A stretch of DNA of 64,000 nt from the NCBI GenBank assembly GCA_026129685.1, contig JAHCHO010000001.1, positions 248,001 through 312,000 of the forward strand, given 5' to 3'. The translations under genes were made by a program, and so were the position numbers. This document shows positions 2 through 7,899 of the stretch, in pieces. The stretch comes from Fimbriimonadaceae bacterium. GTDB lineage: Bacteria > Armatimonadota > Fimbriimonadia > Fimbriimonadales > Fimbriimonadaceae. The notes under the pieces were generated by a model that saw nothing but the letters and a program-made list of their open reading frames with translations, was not told where the DNA came from and made no database searches. Each line of letters begins with the position of its first letter. The first letter of the stretch is position 1.

Positions 2-1270
2 GCCCTCTACGCCTCCGCGATCGAACCGTGGTCGGAATATCTGACCAACGTGATGGGCACGCCGCCCAGTCCGCTCTACGATCCTCTGTCGTTCTGGATC
101 GACGAGGCTCACCGTCGCGGATTGGAACTCCACGCCTGGTTCAACCCCTACCGCGCGCTGAACTCATCGCATCGCAATGCGATCGCCTCGAACCACGTCA
201 GCGTCACCCATCCCGATTGGGTCAAGGACTACGGCAATGACAAGTGGCTCGACCCCGGGCGTTACGAGGTCCGCGAACACTCGTTGGGGGTCGTGATGGA
301 CGTCGTGAACCGCTACGACGTGGACGGGGTCCACTTCGACGATTACTTCTACCCCTACCCCATCAGCGGTACCCCGTTCCCCGACGACGATAGCTTCGCC
401 GCCTACCAAGCGGGGGGCGGGACGATGAGCCTCGCCAACTGGCGCCGATGGAACGTCGACACCTTCGTCTCGACCGTCTACCAAGCGATCAAGGCGGCCA
501 AACCGCGCGTCAAATTCGGCATCAGTCCGTTCGGCATCTGGCGGCCGGGAAACCCACCGGGCATCACCGGACTCGACGCCTACGCGTCCTTGTACGCCGA
601 TTCGCGCAAGTGGCTCAACCTCGGCTGGGTGGACTACCTCACTCCCCAGCTCTACTGGCAACTCGGCTCGACCGGCCAGAGCTACACCAAACTGTTGGAC
701 TGGTGGATCGGCGAGAACCACCAAGGTCGGCATCTCTGGCCCGGCAACTTCACGAGCAACATCGGCTCCCAGTTCGGCGACTGGCCCGCCACCGAGATCG
801 TCGGCCAGATCTACGAGACGCGTCGGCGTTCCGGCTCGACTGGCAACGTCCACTTCAGCGCCCGCGCCTTCATCGGCAACTACAAAGACATCGTCACCAT
901 CCTCAAGACGGGGATGTACTCGGATCAAGCGCTCGTGCCCGCCTCGCCCTGGCTCGACCGTCGGCCCCCCGCTGCTCCCGTGCTCGGCGCGACCCTATTC
1001 GGTGACCTTTTGCGTGTGTCGTTCGACGGCGGCGGCCACGAACCCGCCTTCCTCTGGATCGTTTCGGCCCGCTACGGACGGGAGTGGACAACCCGGGTGA
1101 TTCCCGCCGCCCAGCGGAGTTTCGACGTTTCCCGGACGCTCGACGGCGTCGTCTTGGCGGAGGTACGCGTCTCGGCCGTAGACCGCACGGGCAACGAGTC
1201 CGAACCCGCCCGATGGCCGGAACGCTCCCGGTGGGGTTCGGGTACTCTTTCGAACCGCTCGCGGACGTAG
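2..1270 (+). CDS. GHL10-type family 10-like glycosyl hydrolase, C-terminal part
   Basis: The gene is cut by the left window edge, so the N-terminus and any signal peptide are missing. The reading frame is open from base 2. It encodes a TIM-barrel glycosidase of the GHL10 (PF02638, DUF187) family; the family is thought to hydrolyse polysaccharides outside the cytoplasm. Visible signatures are the LHAWFNPYR strand, the VDGVHFDDYFYPYP strand with acidic barrel residues, KFGISPFGIW and DYLTPQLYW. A beta-sandwich-like tail follows from about base 950. The TAG stop at 1268-1270 lies inside the first ten bases of the tRNA-Arg gene that the downstream element has split. The family is clear; the substrate is not. 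Confidence 0.88.
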   Translation, partial: ALYASAIEPWSEYLTNVMGTPPSPLYDPLSFWIDEAHRRGLELHAWFNPYRALNSSHRNAIASNHVSVTHPDWVKDYGNDKWLDPGRYEVREHSLGVVMDVVNRYDVDGVHFDDYFYPYPISGTPFPDDDSFAAYQAGGGTMSLANWRRWNVDTFVSTVYQAIKAAKPRVKFGISPFGIWRPGNPPGITGLDAYASLYADSRKWLNLGWVDYLTPQLYWQLGSTGQSYTKLLDWWIGENHQGRHLWPGNFTSNIGSQFGDWPATEIVGQIYETRRRSGSTGNVHFSARAFIGNYKDIVTILKTGMYSDQALVPASPWLDRRPPAAPVLGATLFGDLLRVSFDGGGHEPAFLWIVSARYGREWTTRVIPAAQRSFDVSRTLDGVVLAEVRVSAVDRTGNESEPARWPERSRWGSGTLSNRSRT

Positions 1271-1303
1271 CTCAACGGATAGAGCATCAGTCTTCGGAAC
1301 TGA
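1261..1303 (+). pseudogene. 5' half of split tRNA-Arg(UCG) gene (attL side)
   Basis: This segment contains the acceptor 5' strand GCGGACG, the D-stem GCTC/GAGC with an AACGGATA loop, and the complete anticodon arm TCAGT-CTTCGGA-ACTGA with anticodon TCG. The variable loop, T-arm and acceptor 3' strand are absent: the sequence after 1303 neither pairs with GCGGACG nor forms a GGGGG/CCCTT T-stem. The missing part, ending CGTCCGCGCCA, is found at 7866-7899, 6.5 kb away. Joining 1261-1303 to 7867-7899 gives a standard 76-nt tRNA-Arg. The gene has therefore been cut by integration and should make no functional tRNA. Confidence 0.9.
1286..1303 (+). repeat. attL core repeat (18 bp, copy 1)
   Basis: An 18-bp exact direct repeat (ATCAGTCTTCGGAACTGA) shared with 7849-7866. 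It consists of the anticodon stem as an inverted repeat (TCAGT/ACTGA) around the 7-nt anticodon loop CTTCGGA. This is the layout expected for two inverted core-type recombinase sites around a 7-bp crossover region. It marks the left boundary of the integrated element. Confidence 0.9.
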
Positions 1304-1329
1304 CCCGATCAGGTTCAAACGGAGGCTTC

Positions 1330-1364
1330 ACCAGACTTTCCGAGGCCGATCACACCAGAGATTC
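1330..1364 (+). repeat. Left arm-type integrase sites (two direct copies)
   Basis: Two 11-bp copies of the pattern ACCAGA(C/G)(T/A)TTC lie in the same orientation: ACCAGACTTTC at 1330-1340 and ACCAGAGATTC at 1354-1364. The same two variants recur at the right end of the element (7741-7763). Short direct repeats at both ends, 25-110 bp from the crossover core, are the hallmark of arm-type sites bound by the N-terminal domain of lambda-like tyrosine integrases. That role is inferred from position and sequence. Confidence 0.72.
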
Positions 1365-1430
1365 CAAAATCAGAGCGTCAAGATCACGCCGCCGATCCGC
1401 TCGGGAGCCACCTTGCCCCTTACGGGAGGG

Positions 1431-1436
1431 TATCAT
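1431..1436 (+). promoter_or_regulatory. Possible -10 box for the intron-containing tRNA
   Basis: TATCAT, which matches five of six consensus bases, lies 12 nt before the mature tRNA 5' end at 1449. No good -35 box is seen at the usual spacing, so this is tentative. Confidence 0.35.
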
Positions 1437-1448
1437 CATCGGCGGCAA

Positions 1449-1741
1449 CCGCGCGTAGCTCAATGGATAGAGCATCAGTCTTGACCGTTGAACACAATCA
1501 GGAGTGCCCGAGGGGAAACCCTCGGTGTAGAACGACGTAAAGTCGGCGAACCCTTCACCTGGGAACGCCGAGCCAAGCCCCGCAAGGGGAAGGTGTAGAG
1601 ACTCGACACGTCGCGCCTACGTCGCTTCGGCGATATGGCGAAGGCAGAGTCCAGACCACGAACGGCCCGAGGGTCGGCGGCGAAAGTCGAAGTGGTAAGC
1701 GGAACTGAGGGTTGGGGGTTCGAGTCCCTTCGCGCGGGCCA
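1449..1741 (+). tRNA. tRNA-Arg(UCG) interrupted by a group I intron
   Basis: The exons are 1449-1482 and 1700-1741. The acceptor stem is CCGCGCG (1449-1455) paired with CGCGCGG (1731-1737), followed by G and an encoded CCA (1739-1741). The D-stem is GCTC/GAGC, the anticodon stem TCAGT (1475-1479)/ACTGA (1704-1708), and the T-arm GGGGG-TTCGAGT-CCCTT. After removal of 1483-1699 the loop reads CTTCGGA with anticodon TCG, the same as the tRNA the element has split. The anticodon and T-arms are nearly identical to the host gene, but the acceptor stem differs completely, so this is a related yet distinct tRNA. It probably supplies the decoding lost by the split. A T5 run at 1748-1752 may help termination. 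Confidence 0.92.
1483..1699 (+). ncRNA. Group I (IC3, Azoarcus-like) self-splicing intron in tRNA-Arg
   Basis: The 217-nt intron lies between anticodon bases 34 and 35. Pairings visible by eye: P1, exon CTT (1480-1482) with internal guide GAG (1502-1504) and the expected U-G at the splice site; P2, CCGAGGG-GAAA-CCCTCGG (1508-1525); P3, CGACGT (1533-1538) with ACGTCG (1608-1613); P4, TCGGCG (1543-1548) with CGCCGA (1566-1571); P5, CCC/GGG; P6, CCCC-GCAA-GGGG; P7, GACTC (1600-1604) with GAGTC (1647-1651); P8, CGCC/GGCG around a TTCG loop; P9, ACCAC/GTGGT. The intron ends in G1699. The J4/5, J6/7 and P7 regions read like the Azoarcus tRNA-Ile ribozyme as I remember it. No homing endonuclease is encoded. 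Confidence 0.93.
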
Positions 1742-1944
1742 TCCCACCTTTTTGTCGCCACCCCTATGTAAGGAGTAGGTGATCTTCCCGCCGACGCAGA
1801 AGAACACTTTGGGACAGGCGCGACGCGCCCGCAAGGGGGTCGGCCTCCCGAACCTGGGGACATCCGAACAGCGTGAACACGTCGGTGTACAAGCCGACGA
1901 CACCATGAAGGCCGTGCGCGACTCCCCAGGGTCGCGGCGGCCTT

Positions 1945-1962
1945 CTCCCTTGGCCCAGGGAG
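1945..1962 (+). promoter_or_regulatory. Hairpin sequestering the ribosome-binding site of the 81-aa gene
   Basis: CTCCCT (1945-1950) is a perfect complement of AGGGAG (1957-1962), with loop TGGCCC. AGGGAG is the Shine-Dalgarno sequence of the gene starting at 1970, seven nt upstream of its ATG. If the hairpin forms in the mRNA it would reduce initiation, and expression would depend on upstream transcription or an unfolding signal. The pairing is seen; the function is inferred. Confidence 0.4.
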
Positions 1963-1969
1963 TACCAAC

Positions 1970-2215
1970 ATGGTGAACTATGAAGATGAAGACGAACTGA
2001 CGCTCCACGAGCGTCTCCAGCAGGCCGACAAGGCCCTGCGCCGCGCCACCGACGATCTTGAGTCGGAGCGCATGTACTACTACGAAGACCCCTCGGACGC
2101 CAATCGCGAACGGATGAAGAAGGCGAAGAAGCACGTTCTGGAGGCCGCCGAGGAGCGCGACGCCGTTCTGGATGAGATCGCTGCCGAAGACGAAGGCGAA
2201 GCCATCGGCTGGTAG
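1970..2215 (+). CDS. Small acidic, probably coiled-coil protein of the element (81 aa)
   Basis: The product is not recognised. It is highly charged (rich in Asp, Glu, Lys and Arg) and its heptad-like stretches over most of its length suggest an alpha-helical coiled coil. The start is supported by AGGGAG seven nt upstream. The gene sits directly before the primase-like gene (15-nt gap, same strand), so the two are probably co-transcribed, and a role in replication or copy control of the element is possible. That role rests on position only. Confidence 0.6.
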   Translation: MVNYEDEDELTLHERLQQADKALRRATDDLESERMYYYEDPSDANRERMKKAKKHVLEAAEERDAVLDEIAAEDEGEAIGW

Positions 2216-2230
2216 GACAAACTGCTACCG

Positions 2231-4252
2231 ATGTGGTTCGATGCAAGCGAACCCCAGCGGGCCTTCGAGGACGGCATCTTCGGCTTCAACCCGTGGGGGT
2301 TCGCCTACTTTTTGGAGCCTGACGGCTTCCGCTCGATCCAGGCGCTCCGAGGCCCGCGCCTGGATCAGTACGAGAAGTTCGTGCCGAGGACGTTGGGGAT
2401 TGCCAGGGCCATGTACGGCACGATCCACCAGCGGCACACCTGGGGCACGCAGATTGCGCCTGGTCGCTGGTCTTACGAGCGTCTCAACGCCGAGATAAAG
2501 ACCCCAAAGGGCACCCGAAGAGGCAACATAATCCAACTCGGCGACGTGCTCAAGCACCTTTGCGGACGCAGCCGCTATGCCCGTGGCACGACCGACGTTC
2601 CTGTGCAGTTCTACTCGTGGAAAGCTCAGGAATCGGAGTGGAGGCCGAACTTCGTGCCGTGCTTGCGTCTGGACATCGACCTCGACCGAGCTTGGTTCGC
2701 CGAGGACGACAGCGAGGTGGTGCGGGAGCTTGTGTCACAGCGACAGGTCGTCGAGGCCACGAGCCTGCCCTACCGAGTCTTCAGGACGGGATCGCGTGGC
2801 GTACAGGTCGTAATCCCCCTTCCGCTGTCCGTCCCCCCAAGCCTCGCTTCGGCGCTCATGCACGGGATTAGGTCGGCGCTGGAAGAGCGCGGGCGAGGCT
2901 TCACCAATCCCGACAAGGATAATCTGCACAGCCTGATGCGGCTCCCTGGCGGGCTACACGCGTCGAGCGAAAACCTCGGCCTGTGGATCGACGTGGACGA
3001 GGGCAGGCTGTATCCGCTCGAAGTGCAGGCCGAGATGATGGCGGCGGGCTTCGGCTACCCCGACGACCAGGACGTGATGACGAAGGAGACGTTCCAGAAG
3101 GCGGGATCGGCGATGCTCAACCGCATCACGGCCTCGGGCGTCGCGATACACGAACTTCTCGACCGCGACGCCGCCATGCTCCACCTACGCGCCCGCCCCG
3201 CCAATCCCATCGCGCAGGCCATCGAGGCCGCGCACGAGGAGGCTCGGGTTATCCGTGCGGAGCGGGAGGCGATGATGGACGAGTGGCGGAAGACGTGGCT
3301 CGCTCCTTCACCGCCACCGACCGAGGCGGCGACCGAACAGCAGGAGAAGGAACACGCCTCCGAGGTCGCCGAGACGATCCTGGAAGGCAACGAGGAGGCC
3401 GTAGAAGTTCGTGCCGACGCCGCCGCCCCTGTGGGCACCGTCGAGTGGGCCAAGGCGGTGTGGCTGGAGGCGTACCCGCAGGGAGGCCACTGGGAGTGGG
3501 TGAACATGGGCGGCAGGAAGGGCATTCTCGCCGCCGTCATCCTTTTCGGTTCCGACCGCGCGGAGGAGGCGATGCTGACGCTCTCTCGGCAGATCGGCGC
3601 GAGGAGCGCCACCGAGATGCGGGAGCGCGAGTTCACGATACGACGCCTGTGGGAGACGTTCGGCATGAAGAACTTCGTGCCGTACAAGGAGCGGGAGGCG
3701 TTCGTGCCGCCGTTGGTTCTGGGGCCGTCCACCCCCGAGGTGGAGGAACTCGCCGACCGCATCCTGGCCCAGATGCTCGCGGCGCAGCCGAAGCCGCGTT
3801 GGAACACGGCGCTCGCGCGGAAGCTCGCGCTCGTGCTGCTCATCGGCATCAGGGACTCGGAGACGGGCAGGCTTAGAGCGTCTTTCGGCACCCTCTCCGC
3901 CAGCGTCAACGAGCGGTGGCCCGAGGTGCGGACGAACCGCCAACGGGTCTCGGAGATGATCCCGAGAATGACGCAGGGCAAGGCGACCCTGGTGAGGGGC
4001 TTCTTCAGGGCCAAGGGCCAGAAGTGGAAGTCGGAGGCCGACGAGTACGGCTGCGGACTATTCCTTCGGGGGACGCCCCTCCAGCAAGAGGCGTCGCGTA
4101 AGCTCGCCGAGATCATTGAGAGGCAGGCCGTCGAGTTCGGCGACGACGATCCCGTGATCGGGGAGCATGACGCTCCAGCAGAAGCTACGCCTGACGCTCT
4201 TGCCTGGGACGGGGCCGATGACGCCTCCGTAGAGGGGCCGCCTTCCCCCTAA
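2231..4252 (+). CDS. Primase-like (AEP superfamily) replication protein of the element
   Basis: A 673-aa protein with the three motifs of archaeo-eukaryotic primases in order: the metal-binding motif LRLDIDLD near residues 145-152, a motif-II-like segment SRGVQVVIPLP near 187-198, and RLPGGLHAS near 236-244. In classical members motif II contains a catalytic His (SxH); here Gln occupies that place, so the active site may be altered. The N-terminal 140 residues are not recognised. The C-terminal half has a charged linker (about residues 350-400) followed by helical regions that may bind DNA. It probably primes or initiates replication of the excised element. The ATG lacks a Shine-Dalgarno sequence, so coupling to the preceding gene is likely. 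Confidence 0.72.
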   Translation: MWFDASEPQRAFEDGIFGFNPWGFAYFLEPDGFRSIQALRGPRLDQYEKFVPRTLGIARAMYGTIHQRHTWGTQIAPGRWSYERLNAEIKTPKGTRRGNIIQLGDVLKHLCGRSRYARGTTDVPVQFYSWKAQESEWRPNFVPCLRLDIDLDRAWFAEDDSEVVRELVSQRQVVEATSLPYRVFRTGSRGVQVVIPLPLSVPPSLASALMHGIRSALEERGRGFTNPDKDNLHSLMRLPGGLHASSENLGLWIDVDEGRLYPLEVQAEMMAAGFGYPDDQDVMTKETFQKAGSAMLNRITASGVAIHELLDRDAAMLHLRARPANPIAQAIEAAHEEARVIRAEREAMMDEWRKTWLAPSPPPTEAATEQQEKEHASEVAETILEGNEEAVEVRADAAAPVGTVEWAKAVWLEAYPQGGHWEWVNMGGRKGILAAVILFGSDRAEEAMLTLSRQIGARSATEMREREFTIRRLWETFGMKNFVPYKEREAFVPPLVLGPSTPEVEELADRILAQMLAAQPKPRWNTALARKLALVLLIGIRDSETGRLRASFGTLSASVNERWPEVRTNRQRVSEMIPRMTQGKATLVRGFFRAKGQKWKSEADEYGCGLFLRGTPLQQEASRKLAEIIERQAVEFGDDDPVIGEHDAPAEATPDALAWDGADDASVEGPPSP

Positions 4253-4350
4253 CGTATAGGTGTAACGGTTCAGGGGGTGTCTGATGCCATTCTCTGGCGC
4301 AACCGCTTCACGATCTCGTCTTTGGACGGAACTCCGCCCACGTACAGCCT

Positions 4351-4689
4351 TCATCCAGGTTCGGCGCTCGGAGACGGTTTGGGCATCCCCATGAGATCGT
4401 TGCCGCCCAGGAGCACTGTAGGCGTCCCATAGCCTCGCCTCAAGTCAGAACGAGGCAGATCACCCACGTCGATCACCTTGTAGTCGGTGTCCCCCCTGAT
4501 CTCTCTCAATGCGGAATCGAGGTTGTGCCGCATCTTCGGGGTGTTCACGCAACCCTGCCGAGACAAGAACTCTAGGGACATCGCGCTTCGCTTGGTCATC
4601 CTATCCTCCGACCGCTCAGGCTGGCCCTTGCATCCGATCACGATCAGCCCGAGCAGTAGCCCGATCAGGGAGGCCGATCTGCTTGGCAT
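4351..4689 (-). CDS. Small lipoprotein, possibly thioredoxin-like fold (112 aa)
   Basis: The N-terminus has a hydrophobic segment ending in a lipobox (LIVIGC, Cys20), which predicts a membrane-anchored lipoprotein. The rest contains GCVNTPKMRHNL, a VIDVGDLP strand and GYGTPTVLLGGNDLMGMP. Such a pattern, with one Cys followed by a cis-Pro-like TPT, resembles thioredoxin-fold proteins of unknown function. Only one Cys remains after the lipobox, so it is unlikely to be a classical CxxC oxidoreductase. It lies alone, opposite in strand to the primase-like gene. TAGAAT lies six nt before the ATG (at 4696-4701), suggesting a leaderless transcript. Confidence 0.6.
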   Translation of the reverse strand: MPSRSASLIGLLLGLIVIGCKGQPERSEDRMTKRSAMSLEFLSRQGCVNTPKMRHNLDSALREIRGDTDYKVIDVGDLPRSDLRRGYGTPTVLLGGNDLMGMPKPSPSAEPG

Positions 4690-4814
4690 GGTGCCATTCT
4701 ACACCCCCTGTATCGAACACAAGGTTGAGATGGCTTCATGGAGTGTGGCTGCACCCCAACCTTGGCATGTGGAAGAACAGCGGGTTCCCATCTCGGTGGA
4801 ACGATCCACTACCC

Positions 4815-5042
4815 CTATGGAGAGTCCTCACCCGCGATTTGACCCCCACCCCCATCAAGCTCCTGCGCGAGGGAGGCGATGCGGTCGGAGAGTTCGAGCG
4901 CCTCAGCAACACTGAGCGTCACGCCGATGTGCCGCCCGTCGTGGAGAAGCTGGACGACCACTCGCGGTTCTCGGTCGCTGAAGATGTGGCCTACGACGAG
5001 TGCGGCGGTGCGGGCGACATGTGGGGGAATCTCTCGGCTCAT
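4815..5042 (-). CDS. Small unknown protein of the element (75 aa)
   Basis: I do not recognise this protein. It has a hydrophobic beta-like central part (VVVQLLHDGRHIGVTLSV) followed by a helix (AEALELSDRIASLAQEL) and a Gly-rich tail. The start is supported by a TATAAA box at 5049-5054, exactly six nt upstream of the ATG, the same leaderless arrangement as many genes in this window. It lies downstream of the integrase genes on the same strand, separated by a hairpin and about 190 nt. Confidence 0.5.
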   Translation of the reverse strand: MSREIPPHVARTAALVVGHIFSDREPRVVVQLLHDGRHIGVTLSVAEALELSDRIASLAQELDGGGGQIAGEDSP

Positions 5043-5227
5043 GCCGACTTTATACAGGACTACTCCACGACTGATACCGCAGGAATAGTAGACAAGTTTC
5101 TGCTTTCCTTAGGAGTTCATCCAGAGTGTGGTGCAGGTTCGGACGATGCACAGTCAGGTTCCCGCGCGGCGGCATCATCTACGACTTCTTATAATGGAAC
5201 AGGCGCTCTCGACCAAGCCCACCGAGT

Positions 5228-5248
5228 GCTCGGCCTTAAAGGCCGAGC
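5228..5248 (-). terminator. Hairpin at the 3' end of the first integrase gene
   Basis: GCTCGGCCT (5228-5236) and AGGCCGAGC (5240-5248) form a perfect 9-bp stem with a 3-nt loop. It overlaps the last codons and the stop of the integrase gene that ends at 5236. There is no long T-run on either side, so it is a terminator or mRNA-stabilising candidate only. Confidence 0.42.
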
Positions 5249-6210
5249 TTGCTCCCAGCGTTGTCGTCGAAGCGGCAGGCTGCGCGGATGTAGGAGCGGA
5301 GCACCTGGACGCTTCGATGGTTGCTCGTCTTGGCGATGCTGTGCTCGGACGCGCCGTTCGCCGCCGCCGAGGTGATGAAGCCCGCGCGGGTCGAGTGCGC
5401 TCCGAAGTCCTGCGGGTCGCGCCCCGTCCTCTCCACCGCTCGCTTGACAATCCGTCCCACCGAGCCGCCGTCCATCCTTCCATCCGACACGCGCCCGTGC
5501 CTATCCACCGAGCGGAACAGCGGGCCGCCTATCAGCCCAGCCGCCTCGATCCACGCGCGGAGCGCACGAATGGGACAGGTGCGTTCGGCATTGCCGTATG
5601 GGACGGCGACGACGTGCCCAACGCCCTCCTGATCGACCTTGCTCCTCCTCACGGTGATCTCCATGCCGCGTTCCACGTACCGAACGTCCTCGAAGTCGAG
5701 GCCAACGATCTCACTGCGTCGCATCGCGGTCGCGAACGCTACAAGTATGAGGGCACGGTCACGAACGCCGATCAGGCTATCGGGAAGCTCTTCGAGCATA
5801 GCTTTTACGACCTCGGTCGTGGCGGGGGCCTTCTGCTCTCTGGGAGCCACCCCGATGGTGCGGCGGATACCTCGCCAGACTTCTCGGAAAGCAGGCGTCT
5901 GAGTGGGACTCGCCAACCTTACTGCCTGATGCGCCTGCGAGATCGCCGCCACTGCGACGTTCATGCTTGCCACGCTTTGCGTCCGAGAAAGCGCCGTCAC
6001 GTACAGGGCGACGATTTCTGGATCGGCAGGGAGCGCGTCGAAGCCGCCCATCGAACACCAGCCGACGAACTTGCGCCACTCTCGACTGTACAGAGCGACC
6101 GTCCCGCTGCCCTTGCTCCGCCGCGCGTACTCCCTCGCTTCGTCCCGCAGACCACCAAGATCGAGCACGTCGAGCGGGCTTTCGGAGGTCTTCGCAAGGG
6201 TGCTTTCCAT
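5236..6210 (-). CDS. Tyrosine recombinase/integrase 1
   Basis: A 324-aa phage-integrase-family enzyme. Residues 30-125 form a core-binding SAM-like domain. The catalytic domain shows Arg in ATAMRRSEIVGL, Lys in RRSKVDQEG, the HxxR box HSTRAGF, a second His in TSNHRSVQ and the nucleophile Tyr in VLRSYIR, so the full R-K-H-R-H-Y set is present. It probably catalyses integration or excision at the tRNA-Arg core with the neighbouring recombinase. I chose the ATG at 6210 because TATCGT lies six nt upstream with TTGATT 18 nt further; a longer reading from 6276 would place this promoter inside the gene. It lies 49 nt downstream of recombinase 2 but has its own promoter. Confidence 0.9.
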   Translation of the reverse strand: MESTLAKTSESPLDVLDLGGLRDEAREYARRSKGSGTVALYSREWRKFVGWCSMGGFDALPADPEIVALYVTALSRTQSVASMNVAVAAISQAHQAVRLASPTQTPAFREVWRGIRRTIGVAPREQKAPATTEVVKAMLEELPDSLIGVRDRALILVAFATAMRRSEIVGLDFEDVRYVERGMEITVRRSKVDQEGVGHVVAVPYGNAERTCPIRALRAWIEAAGLIGGPLFRSVDRHGRVSDGRMDGGSVGRIVKRAVERTGRDPQDFGAHSTRAGFITSAAANGASEHSIAKTSNHRSVQVLRSYIRAACRFDDNAGSKLGL

Positions 6211-6216
6211 GTCAAA

Positions 6217-6246
6217 ACGATACCATTTCTGACGCCCGAAAATCAA
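6217..6246 (-). promoter_or_regulatory. Promoter of integrase 1 (leaderless)
   Basis: On the minus strand, TTGATT (6241-6246), an 18-nt spacer, then TATCGT (6217-6222), which lies six nt before the ATG. No ribosome-binding site is present, so the transcript probably begins at or next to the start codon. Confidence 0.65.
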
Positions 6247-6259
6247 CGCTTTTCGTGCG

Positions 6260-7720
6260 TCAGCATGGCAATACAACGTCAGCTCCGAAGGTGATCTTCT
6301 TCATGGCCTCCACCTTCGACTCGGTGCTCGCCTCCAGGTAATATTGCATGGTTGTTGCTACAGAAGTGTGGCCCGCTATGGACATCAACGTCTTCGGATC
6401 GGTGACGCGGCTGAGCGCAGTCAGGGCCGTCTTGCGGCAGCAGTAGATGGAGAACTCCTCGTAGACGGGCCGCTCCTTCTGCGCCATCGCCGCCTTCATC
6501 CGCACGATTATCTTGTCAAAGATGTCCTGCGCCCGTCCAGGGGACAGGCTCCCGTCGAGGTCGGTCTTCTTGCCGCTCTTCGAGCGGTAGCCGCCTTGGA
6601 GCACCCAGGCATCGCCCTTGGCGTTCTTGGGGCGCACCGCCTCGATGAACTTCGCGAGGTGGGGAGGGATCGGAACATCGCGCACGGTGCGCGTCTTCGT
6701 GTTGGTCATGATGAGCTTGCCGTTCTGGTCGCGGTGTTGTTTCTCAACCTGGATGATCCCGCCGCGTATGTTGCGCCACCTGACGGCGACGACCTCGCCA
6801 GGAGCGCGGAGAGAACAAAGACATAGAGCGACCAGGGCGCGTTCCTGGTCGTCCTCGCAGGCCAGGAACAACTCCCTCACAAGCTCATCTGAGAAGAGCG
6901 CCTTCACCTTGTGGACGGGCTTGGTGATGCGGATTCCGCCGCGACGTTGATCCCAGAGAATCGTCTTTACGGGCTTTCCAGCCGCCTGGGCCTGGTAGTA
7001 CACCATACGAACGAAGCTCCTCAAGAGCTTCTTCGTCTGCGCGGAGTACGGCTCTCCGTTCGGCTTCTTCCGACGATCCACGGAGTCGAGCCACTCCTGA
7101 ACGTGCTGCTGAGTCATCTCGCCAAGGAGTAGCTCGCCGATCACGAAGGGGGTGACTTCCTTCCCCCGCTCGGCGGTGACGGTGGGCAAGAGCATGTGGT
7201 TCTTGATGTAGCCGAGCGCGTTGTTGTACTGCCCGATGTACCCTGGGTCGGAGTTGAGCTTCGCGTCGATCACCTCCTGCCCGTAGGTCGCCCAGGTGAT
7301 GCCGCCGAGTTGGCGCTTCCGCTCCTCCTCCCAGGAATCCATTTCCACCGCCACGCGGTTGGTGTGGATGGTGCGCTCCTCGCTCTCTCCGAGCCGCTTC
7401 AGCTTCGCCTCGTCCTGCTTCTTGGCGATGTTCCTCTCGATGTTCTGCTCGCACTCGGTTCGGGTGCCTCCCCGCGCCCACACCTGCTCTTCCATCGGCG
7501 GCCCCATGAAGTACCAACTGATCTTCGTCCACCCATACCCCTCGAATAGCGTCTCCCTGATAGCCCCGAACGTCGCACTCGGGTTCTTCGCCTTGAAGTC
7601 CGAAACGAGGCGCTCGATTCCCTTGCGGGATTTGTGGGTGAGGGTCTTTCGCTCGCGGCCCACACGGGCCGTCACGGTATGTTCGATACACACAATAGAG
7701 CCTTGTTTCTTGCGTGGCAC
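6260..7720 (-). CDS. Tyrosine recombinase/integrase 2 with long N-terminal extension
   Basis: A 486-aa member of the phage-integrase family. The first 120 residues are basic and may bind the arm-type sites. A core-binding domain (about 140-260) and a catalytic domain follow. Visible catalytic positions are Arg in LCSLRAPGEVVAVRW, a Lys in TNTKTRTVRDV, the box-II Arg in YCCRKT (the usual His of HxxR is Tyr here), His in IAGHTSVATT and Tyr in MQYYLEA. It starts with GTG at 7720, preceded six nt upstream by CATAAT, and 20 bp further up lie the right arm sites. This makes it the best candidate for the integrase that recognises the ends, and it may be autoregulated. Confidence 0.88.
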   Translation of the reverse strand: MPRKKQGSIVCIEHTVTARVGRERKTLTHKSRKGIERLVSDFKAKNPSATFGAIRETLFEGYGWTKISWYFMGPPMEEQVWARGGTRTECEQNIERNIAKKQDEAKLKRLGESEERTIHTNRVAVEMDSWEEERKRQLGGITWATYGQEVIDAKLNSDPGYIGQYNNALGYIKNHMLLPTVTAERGKEVTPFVIGELLLGEMTQQHVQEWLDSVDRRKKPNGEPYSAQTKKLLRSFVRMVYYQAQAAGKPVKTILWDQRRGGIRITKPVHKVKALFSDELVRELFLACEDDQERALVALCLCSLRAPGEVVAVRWRNIRGGIIQVEKQHRDQNGKLIMTNTKTRTVRDVPIPPHLAKFIEAVRPKNAKGDAWVLQGGYRSKSGKKTDLDGSLSPGRAQDIFDKIIVRMKAAMAQKERPVYEEFSIYCCRKTALTALSRVTDPKTLMSIAGHTSVATTMQYYLEASTESKVEAMKKITFGADVVLPC

Positions 7721-7726
7721 CCCCGT

Positions 7727-7732
7727 ATTATG
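7727..7732 (-). promoter_or_regulatory. -10 box of integrase 2, next to the arm sites
   Basis: CATAAT on the minus strand, six nt before the GTG at 7720. The arm-type repeats at 7741-7763 overlap the region where a -35 box and polymerase would sit, so integrase binding could repress its own gene. No clear -35 hexamer is seen. Confidence 0.5.
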
Positions 7733-7740
7733 AACAGGTC

Positions 7741-7763
7741 ACCAGAGATTCGACCAGACTTTC
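7741..7763 (+). repeat. Right arm-type integrase sites (two direct copies)
   Basis: ACCAGAGATTC (7741-7751) and ACCAGACTTTC (7753-7763) are exact copies of the two variants at 1354-1364 and 1330-1340. The pair lies 86 bp inside the right core repeat. Together they give two arm sites on each side of the core, as in lambda-like integration systems. Confidence 0.72.
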
Positions 7764-7848
7764 AAAGTGGCTCTACAAGCGATTTGGAGGTGTTGAACCT
7801 ACCTATGCTCGATTCCAGTGGCTTCAAGACCCCTCTATGGGCTTTTCG

Positions 7849-7866
7849 ATCAGTCTTCGGAACTGA
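7849..7866 (+). repeat. attR core repeat (18 bp, copy 2)
   Basis: Exact copy of 1286-1303 (the tRNA-Arg anticodon arm). It marks the right boundary of the integrated element. Confidence 0.9.
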
Positions 7867-7899
7867 GGGTTGGGGGTTCGAATCCCTTCGTCCGCGCCA
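7849..7899 (+). pseudogene. 3' half of split tRNA-Arg(UCG) gene (attR side)
   Basis: The fragment holds the anticodon arm, the variable loop GGGTT, the T-arm GGGGG-TTCGAAT-CCCTT, the acceptor 3' strand CGTCCGC, a discriminator G and an encoded CCA ending at 7899. The acceptor 5' strand and D-arm are missing; the bases left of 7849 do not resemble them. It complements 1261-1303 exactly. Confidence 0.9.

Follow-up and report, generated by a model that had tools for sequence, protein, structure and literature searches.

The window, a 64,000-nt stretch of a Fimbriimonadaceae genome, contains a tyrosine-recombinase element of 6.6 kb that splits the host tRNA-Arg(UCG) gene at an 18-bp core (Table 1). 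The core is present at both junctions and is composed of the stems TCAGT and ACTGA around the loop CTTCGGA, corresponding to the anticodon arm of tRNA-Arg(UCG). By our own estimate, an exact repeat of 18 nt is expected about 1e-7 times within 6.6 kb; because, in addition, the same anatomy recurs in two related elements, we do not regard the repeat as a chance match. Allowing up to two mismatches, the uninterrupted core was found in the whole genome at the two junctions only. Candidate arm-type repeats flank the core at both ends of the element and are kept in the relatives. The anatomy of the element is real and well supported.

Table 1 Features of the element and of the split host gene, numbered from the first nucleotide of the window.
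Feature	Position	Strand	Evidence or remark
Host tRNA-Arg(UCG) gene, 5′ part, nt 1–43	1261..1303	+	Sequence; broken by the element
attL core ATCAGTCTTCGGAACTGA, whole anticodon arm	1286..1303	+	Core shared by the related elements G074 and G076
Candidate arm-type integrase sites, left end: CACCAGACTTTCC (1329–1341), CACCAGAGATTCC (1353–1365)	1329..1365	+	Direct repeat, conserved in G074; putative role
Element tRNA-Arg(UCG), 5′ exon, nt 1–34	1449..1482	+	ARAGORN with introns; counterpart in G074 95% identical
Group I (IC3-like) intron, 217 nt, between U34 and C35	1483..1699	+	ARAGORN, alignment, covariation
Intron landmarks: guide GAG; P7 strands; terminal G	1502–1504; 1600–1604, 1647–1651; 1699
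Element tRNA-Arg(UCG), 3′ exon, nt 35–76, CCA encoded	1700..1741	+	Sequence, ARAGORN with introns
81-aa ORF	1970..2215	+	Conserved in G074, 86% aa
Protein of 673 aa, a possible primase-polymerase (replication)	2231..4252	+	Conserved in G074, 81% aa; LigD Prim-Pol similarity sub-threshold only
Tyrosine recombinase A, 346 aa	5236..6276	-	Pfam Phage_integrase 5.9e-17; part in G076 with 77% identity
Tyrosine recombinase B, 486 aa, adjoins attP	6260..7720	-	PHROG integrase 9.1e-33, Pfam 4.5e-6; 88% identical in G076
Candidate arm-type sites, right end: CACCAGAGATTC, CCAGACTTTC	7740..7763	+	Conserved in G076; putative role
attR core, second copy of ATCAGTCTTCGGAACTGA	7849..7866	+	Sequence
Host tRNA-Arg(UCG) gene, 3′ part, nt 44–76	7867..7899	+	Sequence

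Joined to each other, the two parts of the host gene (1261–1303 and 7867–7899) are identical at 76/76 positions to the intact gene of a genome from the same genus (G067). Neither junction of the element restores this gene. The left junction, tried as a rebuilt tRNA, reached 21.9 bits with the Rfam tRNA model against a cut-off of 29, with acceptor and T stem unpaired, and was rejected on these grounds. In another genus, the genome G075 has an uninterrupted tRNA-Arg(UCG) gene at the syntenic site, and G074 and G076, contigs of sister species of G075, are occupied by related elements. In G074 the left flank is shared (73.5%) and leads into the broken 5′ part and then an element with the intron tRNA. 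In G076 the right flank is shared (79%), and the 3′ part and the two recombinases lie before it. A 25-nt pattern of the intact arm, searched in five genomes, was found in G067 and G075 and in G074 as the broken junction copy only; it had no match in G076 and G010. In total, the related elements belong to three species in two genera. The preliminary description of this locus had proposed a tRNA gene split and unrepaired at either junction, a core equal to the anticodon arm, and a replacement tRNA-Arg of the same anticodon with an intron between bases 34 and 35, and had named the empty site in relatives as a check; all of these points hold, here and in the analysis of the replacement gene below, and the empty site does exist in relatives.

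Between its ends, the element encodes two recombinases, a large protein and a small ORF. Recombinase B is likely the integrase, and we would take it to be the active one. Judged by the integrase, the nearest named relative of the genome is a Fimbriimonadaceae MAG. The 673-aa protein gave no match, or sub-threshold matches only, in viral contigs, plasmids, Pfam and PDB, and its AlphaFold model, computed without an alignment, had a pLDDT of 35, too low for use in a fold search. We recognized no virion or repressor gene and identified no excisionase within the 6.6 kb.

In its usual mode, ARAGORN detects in the window just a distant tRNA-Glu. With introns allowed, it reports a complete tRNA-Arg(TCG) at 1449–1741 with a 217-nt intron at 34/35, whose exons fold as a full tRNA. 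Between nt 17 and nt 58, this substitute and the host tRNA do not differ at all, and the anticodon arm of the substitute, once spliced, matches the recombination core over all 18 nt. Besides the intron-bearing gene, the host genome (3.94 Mb, 99% complete, 18 contigs) has 44 intact tRNA genes. The Arg anticodons among these are CCG, CCT, GCG and TCT only, and no other tRNA-Arg with UCG or ACG is present among the 44 genes of this 99% complete genome. By the standard wobble rules, the anticodons CCG, CCT, GCG and TCT cannot read CGA. Because of this, and because there is no further UCG or ACG gene, the intron-bearing gene is predicted to be the sole decoder of CGA. CGA accounts for 301 of 12,281 codons (2.5%) and occurs in 18 of the 19 long host ORFs of the window; each recombinase gene contains at least two. 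We infer from these data that the substitute tRNA is expressed and functional.

The assignment of the intron to group I is based on homology, covariation and a relative that passes the Rfam threshold. In an alignment of 20 homologs from Fimbriimonadaceae, phage Daredevil and viral contigs, the core motifs are invariant, as is the terminal G. We drew up a group I fold from P2 to P9, in which P3 and P7 cross, on the window sequence and applied it to every row of the alignment; 94.4% of the cells are paired, compared to 72.8% in shuffles and 26–41% in slid controls. Two-sided changes occur at 34 pairs, P3 and P7 covary, and a compensatory change from A-U to C-G in P7 is common to the three Arg introns. 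The guide GAG at 1502–1504 faces CUU at tRNA positions 32–34, with the U of the 5′ exon paired U-G, and the last nucleotide of the intron is G, as in the IC3 introns of tRNA genes. The Rfam group I model (RF00028) did not match the window intron even at an E of 10, and its threshold is passed by the alignable relative in G010 (67.7 bits), which makes a sensitivity limit of the model the probable cause of the miss. With this correction, the group I claim of the preliminary description stands. Judging from the conserved fold, the intron should splice and thereby restore a working tRNA.

Like the group IC3 introns of tRNA-Leu(UAA) in cyanobacteria, plastids and phages, the intron lies at 34/35 after C32-U33-U34 and has the same core motifs and terminal G; unlike those, it resides in tRNA-Arg(UCG) and on an element that targets this tRNA. 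The CUU at positions 32–34 can be shared by Leu(UAA), Arg(UCG), Lys(UUU), Arg(UCU) and Thr(UGU), and a search for viral members of the family recovered introns at 34/35 of several of these tRNA types; because it required CTT, this gives the range of the family and not its exclusivity. Homologous introns also occur in the tRNA-Leu(UAA) genes of two further Fimbriimonadaceae (G011 and G034). The intron is rare in the phylum, with five of 291 genomes recovered by a pattern search. It was probably derived from the tRNA-Leu(UAA)-type family; the intron tree has poor resolution as to a single origin of the Arg introns.

Between the two genera, the tRNA exons are conserved at 74/76 positions (97%) and the intron at 203/216, compared with 68.5% identity at third codon positions of the gene for the 673-aa protein. 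The conservation of the intron is not unique, since the spacer downstream of the tRNA gene likewise shows 92% conservation. The preliminary description had implied that relatives lacking the element would lack an intron-bearing tRNA-Arg(UCG) as well. This expectation is contradicted in part by one genome, G010, which has such a gene on its chromosome, adjoining smc, a position not common to the relatives checked. The G010 gene is divergent (71% identity), including its intron, and may be a native gene or the relic of an element. It bears on where the substitute may have come from but, being divergent, does not overturn the reading of the locus.

The principle of breaking and replacing a tRNA gene has been published and is shared by this element: in tRNA-dependent lysogeny, actinobacteriophages break a host tRNA gene and carry a substitute (Guerrero-Bustamante & Hatfull, mBio 2024, PMC10865867). 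The element has a tyrosine integrase with an attP/attB core overlapping a host tRNA gene, leaves this gene unreconstructed at both junctions and encodes the cognate tRNA of the same isotype. The disrupted gene was single-copy and the sole predicted reader of CGA, and hence presumably essential. Compared to the phages (PMC10865867), the element is found in a different phylum, uses a different tRNA (Arg UCG), has a core of 18 bp rather than ~8–17 and a substitute tRNA whose core is interrupted by a group I intron, and its four identified genes include no virion genes. In place of a temperate phage with lysogeny functions we find two recombinases, a primase-like protein and a small ORF; by this evidence, the element works like tRNA-dependent lysogeny but is not a phage. 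Canonical tRNA-targeting islands likewise use a tyrosine integrase and a tRNA target but restore the target with their own 3′ part, which this element does not (PMC4383910). The new part is the intron, as no intron was described in any phage tRNA of the lysogeny study (PMC10865867).

Starting from the observed anatomy, the empty sites, the absence of another decoder and the conserved intron fold, we consider it probable that the locus holds a tRNA-dependent integrative element with an intron-shielded substitute tRNA-Arg(UCG), the best explanation of these data. The host has a single tRNA-Arg(UCG) gene, and the tyrosine integrase would recombine the anticodon arm of that gene with attP. Integration splits this presumably essential gene, without rebuilding it, at a presumed 7-bp overlap corresponding to the anticodon loop, and the complete tRNA-Arg(UCG) of the element would take over and keep CGA codons readable. 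With an anticodon arm that equals the core, an uninterrupted substitute would be a perfect attB beside attP. The intron, lying inside the presumed overlap, sets the half-sites 217 bp apart and destroys the core in the DNA, and self-integration, internal rearrangement and integration of a second copy at the substitute should therefore be blocked. In the RNA, the intron would be spliced out and the tRNA would work. The intron has a plausible and testable role in a variant of the published break-and-replace scheme.

A second, independent case of this arrangement is the Gordonia phage Daredevil, reported to integrate into tRNA-Lys-TTT without rebuilding the gene, to lack a tRNA and to form clear plaques (PMC10865867). 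In its genome (NC_048021), a tRNA-Lys(UUU) split by an intron lies about 150 bp away from the attP core; its arm is identical to this core at 16/17 positions, and its intron, again at position 34/35, belongs to the same family as the window intron. This tRNA has a T arm identical to that of Wintermute, a phage of the Fionnbharth species, for which a requirement for the tRNA has been demonstrated. The gene was likely overlooked because, according to PMC8450103, tRNAscan-SE was not built to find introns of this kind. Daredevil thus resembles the element in its integrase, its attP core approximating an anticodon arm and its adjacent intron-split cognate tRNA, and differs in being a 90-kb tailed phage with a different integrase, clear plaques and a published description as lacking a tRNA. 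Among viral intron tRNAs surveyed for a matching attP, Daredevil was the only case, in stretches of at most ~15 kb, so that more distant attP sites would be missed. When viral contigs were searched for more Arg(UCG) introns, 43 loci fitted the pattern, none of them with an intron-bearing tRNA.

We compared these genes with the uninterrupted substitutes of 11 phages (OneUp, Bantam, SpeedDemon, BrutonGaster, Mollymur, DatBoi, Wintermute, Faith1, Baudelaire, JoeDirt and Gaia). Relative to the attP core, the uninterrupted substitutes match at 6–7 of 7 loop positions but at only 3–5 of 10 stem positions, whereas the intron-bearing ones match in the stem at 10/10 (window element) and 9/10 (Daredevil), a contrast drawn from two intron cases and from phages related to each other. 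It is softened by the uninterrupted tRNAs of four mycobacteriophages, which match the mycobacterial host arm at ~6–7 of 10 stem positions (by eye, with the host arm deduced from Amohnition, a phage that reconstructs the gene). The contrast in stem matches to attP is what one would expect if an identical arm without protection were not tolerated; it fits shielding without proving it, so that the shield proposed in the preliminary description gains support from both Daredevil and the uninterrupted substitutes and falls short of proof. In constructs of cluster L phages, the authors of the lysogeny study suspect tandem integration into a plasmid-borne tRNA gene (PMC10865867), which would be the very risk that an intron should remove. 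Whether substitutes are generally hidden by one of two routes, a diverged anticodon stem or a kept stem with a self-splicing intron, here a domesticated shield, is to us an evenly balanced question; the same applies to the idea that intron-split systems are under-counted because tRNA finders miss them. According to a hypothesis of Randau and Soll on archaeal hosts, as quoted in PMC4390854 and PMC4033280, the disruption of tRNA genes protects against integration. In that quoted form, too, an interrupted anticodon loop hides an integration target, but the genes are those of the host, whereas here a mobile element's own gene would be protected. If shielding is true, a self-splicing intron gains a testable benefit for the DNA carrying it, the hiding of an essential gene from a site-specific recombinase with the RNA left intact. 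The finding also extends tRNA-dependent integration beyond actinobacteriophages, reopens the published reading of Daredevil as lacking a tRNA and makes the old idea of protective tRNA interruptions testable with laboratory phages and plasmids.

The break-and-replace arrangement could also be real and the intron a passenger without protective effect, captured together with tRNA-Arg(UCG) or invading later. As the intron family sits in many phage tRNAs with no attP link in the stretches surveyed, a chance passenger is conceivable, and the Fimbriimonadaceae tRNA-Leu(UAA) introns and the chromosomal gene of the element-free G010 point the same way. Against this, the intron has hit precisely the tRNA with an arm equal to the attP core, twice independently, the intron-less phage substitutes have diverged stems and the intron is rare in the phylum; we judge the passenger somewhat unlikely. 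We regard it as highly improbable that the substitute is a copy in decay or without function, with CGA read otherwise and the element a tolerated damaging insertion. The clear plaques of Daredevil, which has the same anatomy, suggest that its tRNA may not work (PMC10865867). This is countered by the frequent use of CGA with no other tRNA to read it by the wobble rules given above, by exons that fold as a full tRNA and are conserved across genera, and by the covarying intron pairs.

The preliminary description had further suggested a toxin-free addiction, in which loss of the element without clean excision also costs the host an essential tRNA; as a rival reading, this would be the main benefit to the element. 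The element does carry the sole predicted decoder of CGA. This proposal is weakened because an excision that is precise would give back an intact host gene, leaving only imprecise loss to be penalized, and we find it doubtful as an account of the element's main benefit. Under the shielded-substitute reading, dependence of the host after imprecise loss is a modest consequence rather than a demonstrated function.

The tRNA set of the host genome uses tRNA-Arg(GCG) and lacks the ACG anticodon, and inosine therefore appears not to be used for Arg codons. As a consequence of this apparent absence, the UCG tRNA would be indispensable for reading CGA. On the element side of attL, a T-loop-like GGTTCAA is kept at the spacing that it has in the tRNA, likewise in the related element of genome G074. 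This motif is possibly the decayed 3′ half left by an ancestor that rebuilt the tRNA.

Coordinates of element features and of intron-bearing tRNA genes in other replicons
Feature	Position	Remark
T-loop-like GGTTCAA, element side of attL	1304-1336	
Two different tyrosine recombinase genes	5236-7720	17-bp overlap; pair kept together in G076 (relative's genome with attR)
tRNA-Arg(UCG), G010 chromosome	L080:10499-10800	flanked by smc and a sugar-kinase-like gene
tRNA-Leu(UAA), G011	L049:1458-1743	group I intron
tRNA-Leu(UAA), G034	L051:1459-1750	group I intron
tRNA-Lys(UUU), Gordonia phage Daredevil (NC_048021)	L269:6179-6490; L163:3211-3522	close to attP
tRNA-Leu(UAA)-like gene, plasmid pCTX-M3 (NC_004464)	L268:2959-3257	contains relative of the window intron

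Fimbriimonadaceae are, to our knowledge, not among the groups commonly cited for tRNA introns. Nevertheless, tRNA-Leu(UAA) is interrupted by a group I intron in G011 and G034 of this family. An intron-bearing tRNA-Arg(UCG) lies on the G010 chromosome, and in the G010 genome neither the element nor an uninterrupted copy of tRNA-Arg(UCG) was found.

The intron-split tRNA of Daredevil belongs to a phage from which phage tRNAs were reported absent (PMC10865867). Further phage tRNAs with introns between positions 34 and 35 occur in viral contigs (L414-L512) for Arg(UCU), Thr(UGU), Lys(UUU), and Ser(UGA). One such tRNA, in contig L512, carries a UCA anticodon and is possibly a stop suppressor.

The PLSDB gene table has no entry for the intron-bearing gene of pCTX-M3, near which lies the resistance gene aac(3)-IId. 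A relative of the window intron (75%) is present in ~1,276 plasmids, most of which come from Enterobacteriaceae and Acinetobacter.
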